A stretch of 53,902 nt of DNA from a virus. Positions 128-53,902 of this stretch are shown piece by piece. Positions within the stretch are counted from its first letter, which is position 1. Every line of letters begins with the position of its first letter. The translations under genes were made by a program, and so were the position numbers. Location of the stretch: the IMG/VR virus record IMGVR_UViG_3300042335_000111, positions 1 through 53,902 of that record; one strand, 5' to 3'. The notes beneath the pieces were generated by a model. It made no database searches. It was given only the letters and a program-made list of their open reading frames with translations, and was not told the DNA's origin.

Positions 128-628
128 TTCCCCTTGCAAAGGGGTTAGGGGTTTTTGTTTCTCTGTTTGTTTCTCTGTATATTGTTTAATATGACGCGCC
201 CGCGCGGAACGAGAAGAATCTTCCACATGGTCAGGAAGAATCTTCCAGATGGATGTGGAAGAATCTTCCAGATGGTCTGCCCTTTCTGATGTCAAAAGTG
301 TGAGTGCAGATTGGCTGATTGTGTAATACTTCATAGCCTTCCCTGCCTGCAAATCGAACTGCTGTGACTTAATCAAACCCATACTTTCCAGCGTCCGAAA
401 CACCTCACCGATTGTCCGTGTTGACCAAAATGGAAACGAGAATTCGCGCCATTGTTCAAGCGTATTGAATATCCAACGCTCGTCATCCACAACTTTTCCA
501 GATCGTTTTTGACCACACCAAAACTTCAAAGTTTGAAGAACGATTGCTTCTGGTAGCCCGATTAGTTTTGCCAAGGTTGGCTGAAAGACGATGGGCGTTT
601 CGTCAATCAATAGATTTGATTTACTCAT
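1..628 (-). CDS. Phage replication initiation protein, N-terminal part (gene continues at 53902-53480)
   Basis: Reading leftward from ATG at 626-628, the frame stays open to position 1 and continues in the same frame through the 127-bp overlap to a stop at 53480, giving a 307-aa protein once the genome is closed. Residues 1-115 look like a winged helix: LIGLPEAIVLQTLKFWC, then STRTIGEVFRTLESMGLIK as recognition helix and wing. The middle (about 140-230) is low-complexity linker. The C-terminus carries the VWNDFISLRKAKRAPLS...RGWQSFKAEW pattern common at the ends of phage replication proteins. It lies upstream of a methyltransferase and DnaB in one operon, which suggests an O-like initiator that recruits DnaB. 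An in-frame upstream ATG at 707-709 would add 27 residues, but that stretch is a structured leader, so I prefer 628. Confidence 0.8.
   Translation of the reverse strand, partial: MSKSNLLIDETPIVFQPTLAKLIGLPEAIVLQTLKFWCGQKRSGKVVDDERWIFNTLEQWREFSFPFWSTRTIGEVFRTLESMGLIKSQQFDLQAGKAMKYYTISQSALTLLTSERADHLEDSSTSIWKILPDHVEDSSRSARARHIKQYTEKQTEKQKPLTPLQGEEESSAMASHSSVELNQPNLFPTNPSEANASGSANAKLNSADG
212..275. repeat. Three iterons inside the replication gene (candidate origin)
   Basis: Three near-identical 19-bp units start at 212, 234 and 257: GGAAGAATCTTCCAGATGG twice exactly, and a first copy with A for G at its first base and C for G near its end. Each has the palindromic core GGAAGA-A-TCTTCC. Spacing is 22-23 bp, about two helical turns. 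A T-rich tract (about 149-192) flanks them. Iterons inside the initiator gene next to an AT-rich stretch is the design of lambda ori inside gene O; origin function here is inferred. Confidence 0.6.
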
Positions 629-1843: not shown

Positions 1844-2149
1844 ATGAGACATCCTTTAGAAGACGCATACGAGTCCTGCATGACTGCTTACGAGCAATCA
1901 CGCATGGTTCGTTCTATCGGGAGGAAAACTTTCGCCACTCAGTTGCGTGAGACTCGCAGGATGTTGCGGTTGACTGTCCGAGAGCTTGGAGAGAAGATCG
2001 GCGTGACTGGATCACTCATCAACCAGATCGAAGTAAACTCCAAGAGTATCTTAAAGAAAGAACAAGTAGAGAAAGTAATCGCACTATGCTACGAAGAAAA
2101 ACCCCACTTAAAGCAAAAACGGGTTTCAAAAAGCGCGGAGGAAAACTAA
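1844..2149 (+). CDS. XRE-family helix-turn-helix regulator
   Basis: 101 aa. Residues about 28-82 form a Cro/CI-type five-helix domain: FATQLRETRRMLRLTVRELGEKIGVTGSLINQIE, with LTVRELGEKIG and VTGSLINQIE as the helix-turn-helix. A basic tail follows, and no dimerisation or peptidase domain is present, so it is Cro-sized. It lies directly downstream of the overlapping divergent promoters and is the obvious candidate to bind TTGACTTGTCAA. Its last 64 bases overlap the HNH gene. Whether it also binds the dispersed palindromes cannot be told from sequence. Confidence 0.85.
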   Translation: MRHPLEDAYESCMTAYEQSRMVRSIGRKTFATQLRETRRMLRLTVRELGEKIGVTGSLINQIEVNSKSILKKEQVEKVIALCYEEKPHLKQKRVSKSAEEN

Positions 2150-53479: not shown

Positions 53480-53902
53480 TCAAAAGTTGGAGAATCGTTC
53501 TGGTTTGGTAGTTGTTTTAGGTTTCATCCATTCAGCTTTGAAACTCTGCCATCCACGGGTGACGCATTCGGTCAGTGCCTCCTCAATGTGCATCGCTGCC
53601 TTCTCCGCTTCTTTGGCGATAGACGCGAGTGCGGTTGCTGATAGCGGAGCGCGTTTAGCTTTACGTAGGGAGATGAAGTCATTCCAGACTTGCTCGCTCA
53701 CGCCGCTCGGCTTTTCGATTTTGGTAGCTCGTTTGGTTCGTGGGGGGGCGAGCGGAATTGGGGGGGTAGTTCCATTGCCATCGGCAGAGTTCAGTTTGGC
53801 GTTAGCCGAACCCGAAGCGTTAGCTTCACTTGGGTTAGTCGGGAATAGATTTGGTTGATTCAATTCAACCGAGGAATGTGAGGCCATTGCCGAACTTTCC
53901 TC
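53480..53902 (-). CDS. Phage replication initiation protein, C-terminal part (continues at 628-1)
   Basis: Same gene as 1-628. Bases 53776-53902 duplicate 1-127. The visible frame is open to the window edge; the ATG at 53887 is internal to the longer protein. A Ser/Asn/Pro-rich linker leads to the domain GVSEQVWNDFISLRKAKRAP...AAMHIEEALTECVTRGWQSFKAEW, the common C-terminal element of phage replication proteins. Followed directly by palindrome 53464-53479 and the methyltransferase. Confidence 0.8.
   Translation of the reverse strand, partial: EESSAMASHSSVELNQPNLFPTNPSEANASGSANAKLNSADGNGTTPPIPLAPPRTKRATKIEKPSGVSEQVWNDFISLRKAKRAPLSATALASIAKEAEKAAMHIEEALTECVTRGWQSFKAEWMKPKTTTKPERFSNF
53776..53902. 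repeat. Terminal direct repeat, copy 2 (assembly overlap)
   Basis: Identical to 1-127; it marks circular closure of the contig. Confidence 0.9.

Follow-up and report, generated by a model that had tools for sequence, protein, structure and literature searches.

A probable replication origin inside the initiator gene of a circular phage genome and a 12-bp repeat that follows one winged-helix superfamily

Phage lambda has its proven origin inside the gene of its own initiator, and the locus described here raises the question of whether another phage with an O-like initiator does the same. The window, i.e., the whole stretch of 53,902 nucleotides that was analyzed, has ends that are identical over exactly 127 bp, indicating a circular assembly of 53,775 bp. 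The initiator gene lies on the minus strand and is complete when read over the circular join, encoding a protein of 307 residues. Its first part (1 to 628, start codon at 628) encodes a winged-helix N-domain (residues 1 to 117) and then a linker; its last part (53480 to 53902) encodes the C-terminal O-like domain, the gene being completed at 53480 to 53775 and positions 53776 to 53902 repeating 1 to 127. The next genes on the same strand encode a C5 cytosine methylase (52193 to 53434) and a DnaB-like replicative helicase (50964 to 52196; PF03796, E = 3e-30). The slot between initiator and helicase holds several different methylases or none in relatives, showing that the methylase is optional. 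No P-type loader using the host DnaB was recognized next to the initiator, whose neighbors are the methylase and the DnaB-like helicase, and no gp39-type loader of the profile-bearing loader families was recognized between initiator and helicase, where only the methylase is found.

The gene had been called O-like in the initial annotation, and the profile searches bear this out: phrog_678, the PHROG family "replication initiation O-like," is matched by a full-length orthologue (locus L003, E = 8e-28) and by the C-domain of the window (E = 3.6e-20). The N-domain has no name in Pfam or NCBIfam, and a PDB sequence search with it returned weak PadR-like matches only. The AlphaFold2 model of a close orthologue (L354) comprises a confident winged helix (residues 17 to 117), a disordered linker (about 123 to 221), for which the putative origin codes, and a helical C-domain of lower confidence. 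Since this linker is predicted to be disordered, protein function should tolerate constraint on the DNA that encodes it. The closest solved folds include the N-domains of plasmid Rep proteins (4pql, 5kbj, and 4pt7, with the labels DNA-binding protein, Rep-DNA complex, and initiator), in weak matches, the best E being about 4e-3 and the TM to target 0.42. The RepA_N domain (PF06970) had no Pfam match in the initiator, leaving the weak fold match with plasmid Rep. The C-terminal domains (53480 to 53887 and related loci) are also swapped between relatives, with the linker as the junction and without regard to the N-domain, and at least four kinds were seen.

Some 350 bp into the gene, after the DNA-binding domain, three iterons with the 13-bp palindromic core GGAAGAWTCTTCC occupy gene nt 354 to 417, with spacings of 22 and 23 bp; the repeats span 212 to 277 in plus-strand coordinates. 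In gene order, and all read on the minus strand, these are GGAAGATTCTTCC at 257 to 269, encoding part of HLEDSS, GGAAGATTCTTCC at 234 to 246, in a shifted reading frame and encoding part of IWKILP, and GGAAGATTCTTCT at 212 to 224, with one mismatch and encoding part of HVEDSS. No further copy within one mismatch was found in the whole 53,775-bp genome. A repeat scan of the initiator gene gave a score of 19, with 30 codon-order shuffles reaching 8 at most; in the comparison with 60 synonymous-codon shuffles of this gene, the observed score was 35 and the highest shuffled score 30. Directly 3' of the iterons is an AT-rich stretch (153 to 192, minus strand; gene nt 437 to 476; 77.5% AT), which is the most AT-rich 40-mer within the window part of the gene and the presumed DNA unwinding element (DUE). 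It contains two copies of a 12-bp unit, ACAGAGAAACAA at 167 to 178 and ACAGAGAAACAA at 155 to 166, both on the minus strand. The initial annotation had reported three palindromic iterons, one sequence and two near copies of it, at a spacing of 22 to 23 bp inside the initiator gene, next to a T-rich stretch; the iterons are indeed present at 212 to 269, the stretch is T-rich on the plus strand, and the proposed span of 149 to 275 takes in both. After the AT-rich stretch we also observed a small inverted repeat, CCCCTT-GCA-AAGGGG (130 to 144), which is a palindrome with an altered spacer in L014 to L016 and is broken in L013; its place is taken by CTCCTTGAAGGAG in relatives including L046 and L055.

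This anatomy had been described as the exact plan of the lambda origin. The likeness to lambda ori and gene O, and to those of the lambdoid/Stx phages, concerns the mid-gene position of the palindromic iterons (nt 349 to 433 for the four annotated lambda iterons, which the same repeat scan recovers as a positive control), their spacing (20 to 24 bp in lambda), and the AT-rich stretch that then follows in both (PMC7466680). It is not exact: the window has three iterons of unrelated sequence, encodes its own DnaB-like helicase with no recognized P-type loader, and carries in its AT-rich stretch an ACAGAGA-type 12-bp repeat that lambda lacks. In having its own helicase the window is nearer to SPP1, whose oriL, with gp38, gp39, and gp40, is likened here by its description: an origin in the initiator gene, direct repeats with an AT-rich unwinding element, and a phage DnaB-type helicase (PMC6316719). 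Between initiator and helicase, no counterpart of the SPP1 loader gp39 was recognized. The initiators of RepA_N plasmids, such as pSK41 Rep, share a winged-helix N-domain of about 120 residues, an origin encoded in the linker, with binding sites central in the gene, and a separate C-domain, and in the chimeric Rep of pPR9 the N-domain and origin have together been swapped in nature for a phage-like pair (PMC5703833). They differ from the window in being plasmid-borne and in having no sequence match with its initiator.

GC skew was rejected as an origin marker; it is the one proposed sequence check whose outcome did not favor the interpretation. A skew minimum at the iterons had been proposed as a check, and it lies instead at about 12 to 13 kb, with the other extremum at 46 kb, both away from the initiator gene. 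Since the skew roughly follows gene direction, it is uninformative on the origin.

Codons for residues that are invariant among 14 aligned sequences showed synonymous variation in 51 of 71 cases in the N-domain (codons 1 to 118); the iteron stretch reached 6 of 17 and the AT-rich stretch 1 of 14 (pooled P = 7e-6 for suppressed synonymous change in the last two regions versus the N-domain). The conserved entity in the iterons is the DNA, given the shifted frame of the middle copy and the suppression of synonymous change there; by this comparison of sequences, conservation acts at the DNA rather than the protein level. We therefore consider it extremely improbable that the iterons are a coding repeat, i.e., a peptide duplicated in the linker and devoid of any function as DNA. 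The predicted disorder of the region they encode is compatible with such a duplication, but the middle copy encodes an unrelated peptide, the wobble positions of the iteron cores hardly vary among relatives, and different N-domains carry different repeats at this place. Very unlikely too, if somewhat less so, is that the iterons are operators through which the initiator represses its own gene, with the origin elsewhere. Winged-helix proteins often autoregulate, and many transcription factors are among the folds ranked behind plasmid Rep; nevertheless, the sites lie deep inside the gene, past the DNA-binding domain and beside the most AT-rich stretch, and the proven origin of lambda has the same gene position. 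The iterons could possibly serve as both operator and origin. The reading that we favor, and hold to be very probable from the sequence comparisons, is that the replication origin of this phage lies inside its own initiator gene, as in lambda.

Among relatives gathered via the helicase (80 viral loci with the same neighborhood), the initiator genes at these syntenic loci fall into eight or more N-domain variants, and every variant has repeats of its own in the corresponding position. Tabulating variants against repeats put all counts on the diagonal (T4, 13/13; T0a, 10/10; T0b, 32/32; T2, 10/10; T3a, 7/7; T1, 9/9; T3b, 4/4; T5, 4/6) and zero in every other cell, in a table that is descriptive, since each iteron consensus string was taken from the group in which it was then counted and the groups share ancestry. 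Within family T0, a change in the recognition helix from EPITKKYLNAL to EETTRKFLHAF accompanies a change of iteron: the two versions have nearly identical first residues and a downstream linker in common, and their repeats are different. As read from these loci, this shows that the DNA-binding half of the initiator moves between phages jointly with its presumed binding sites.

The initial annotation had also proposed looking for such iterons in relatives, and repeats of lineage-specific sequence are present at the same place both in the phage group of the window and in relatives as distant as phages of Firmicutes and Proteobacteria. Among eight distant phages with related N-domains found by protein search (hosts Escherichia, Klebsiella, Acinetobacter, Staphylococcus, Pseudomonas, and Geobacillus), the repeat scan exceeded all shuffles in five (Klebsiella, Acinetobacter Abp95, Acinetobacter SA1, Escherichia, and Pseudomonas 8P) and did not in three (Staphylococcus, Geobacillus, and Pseudomonas AF). 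The Staphylococcus and Geobacillus phages have repeats at the same place that are visible by eye, and Pseudomonas AF has one candidate copy only. In the wider family repeats occur often but not in every member, since some of its Firmicutes phages show no clear ones. Many iterons among 160 loci picked by N-domain alone read NNNCAAAATGNNN, with flanks specific to each lineage (GGT/ACC, GTT/AAC, GAT/ATC, GGA/TCC, and GGC/GCC). The lineage of the window departs from this core and also lacks K/R-R after FPFWSxxTI. Acinetobacter phage vB_AbaS_SA1 (L151) carries at least seven consecutive 22-bp iterons in its initiator gene.

The 12-bp repeat of the AT-rich stretch, ACAGAGAnTACn, is present in the corresponding stretches of phages from many hosts. 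Its ACAGAG motif was found at gene nt 330 to 600 in 115 of 147 initiator genes from loci picked by N-domain, mostly in 12-bp steps, and in 37 of 58 after clustering at 75% identity. The QxxYW winged-helix group is defined here by an N-domain with a QxxYW-like motif, by lineage-specific iterons, and by ACAGAGA repeats that follow them with a 12-bp period; the window fits it in having LQTLKFW, three iterons, and two of the 12-bp units. In its phage group the repeat is present with the N-domain variants T4 and T3a and absent with T0, T1, T2, and T5, the helicase being common to all. The 12-bp repeat thus goes with the N-domain and origin, because sisters with the same helicase lack it, and on the evidence of these sisters we rejected the idea that the presence of the unwinding repeat is set by the helicase downstream. 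Across the sequences compared, the 12-bp repeat tracks one winged-helix superfamily, not the helicase.

That the repeat is conserved for its peptide, T-E-x-T, instead of its DNA would explain why 57 of 65 motif copies are in a shared reading frame, and for this reason the peptide may matter too; as the cause of conservation, however, we find it improbable. The other eight copies are in other frames, and T-E pairs are coded ACAGAG in 59 of 80 cases in the linker versus 4 of 44 elsewhere (58 clusters; P = 1e-12), a bias that also appears in GC-rich loci (20 of 25 versus 2 of 19). The codon that follows is AnT, with a free middle base and hence a free residue, and N, I, T, and S codons at this position end in T in 29 of 30 cases, versus 40% elsewhere. 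A blind scan with a 20-base DNA pattern matched at least 120 stretches. In the 80 loci that were read, which include near-duplicates, 101 of 102 copies were in the same frame within long open reading frames, and a QxxYW-type N-domain was located upstream in 76. The synonymous control pattern ACTGAAAnTAC matched 11 stretches, none of them in an initiator, and the reversed control pattern gave 2 matches. The 12-bp repeat is most likely a sequence-specific unwinding element, judging from this pattern of conservation. The further proposal that ACAGAGAnTACn is read as single-stranded DNA, and is common to a large superfamily of initiators in phages, in which the iterons vary with the lineage, has in our estimate about an even chance of being right. 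A search for the repeat in open-access text found no paper on origins, and its novelty is provisional, since the literature was checked in such text only.

Taken with the origin inside the initiator gene, we infer initiator binding, melting, helicase loading, and origin use along the following lines. The winged-helix N-domain would bind the three palindromic iterons, probably as dimers, and the assembled complex would strain and melt the AT-rich DNA that follows immediately. The initiator, or a loader that it recruits, would then contact the 12-bp repeats as single-stranded DNA in a strand-specific manner, and the C-domain would bring the phage's own DnaB-like helicase. There are analogies for the contact with one strand: RK2 TrfA binds one strand of the DUE through four 13-mers, all of which are needed (PMC4081077), and Bacillus subtilis DnaD binds pairs of TnnT on one strand, the DnaD recognition element (PMC10201434). 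The likeness would consist in short repeated motifs on one strand of the DUE, the lower strand of the 12-bp repeat reading TnGTAnT, i.e., two TnnT; the initiators and sequences are others, and the single-strand contact in the window is conjectural.

If the 12-bp repeat is read single stranded, recognition of double-stranded DNA would diverge in these initiators, with that of single-stranded DNA staying fixed, and the N-domain and origin would travel as a single exchangeable unit by which coinfecting phages differ in replication identity. Origin melting by phage and plasmid initiators is still open beyond a few models, and a conserved melting-region repeat that accompanies a single superfamily of initiators across phyla opens single-strand recognition to testing. 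In the phage group of the window, eight or more N-domains are paired with matching iterons at a single locus, and one N-domain family among them contains two iteron classes. This natural panel could reveal a recognition code and show why replicons change identity (incompatibility, or escape from satellites or defense).

Genome-wide, the window also contains 22 sites of the palindrome TATCG-NNNN-CGATA, versus 0.01 expected, in steps of about 2.4 kb (e.g., at 822, 1389, 2847, 5006, 11778, 14795, and 53465). Several lie 14 to 31 bp before large open reading frames and others inside genes, and the palindrome is about 40 times denser in the phage group of the window than in unrelated loci. From this distribution, these sites are candidates for a stoperator-like or promoter-operator system, and a 101-residue helix-turn-helix protein encoded near the initiator (1844 to 2149, plus strand) is a candidate repressor for them.
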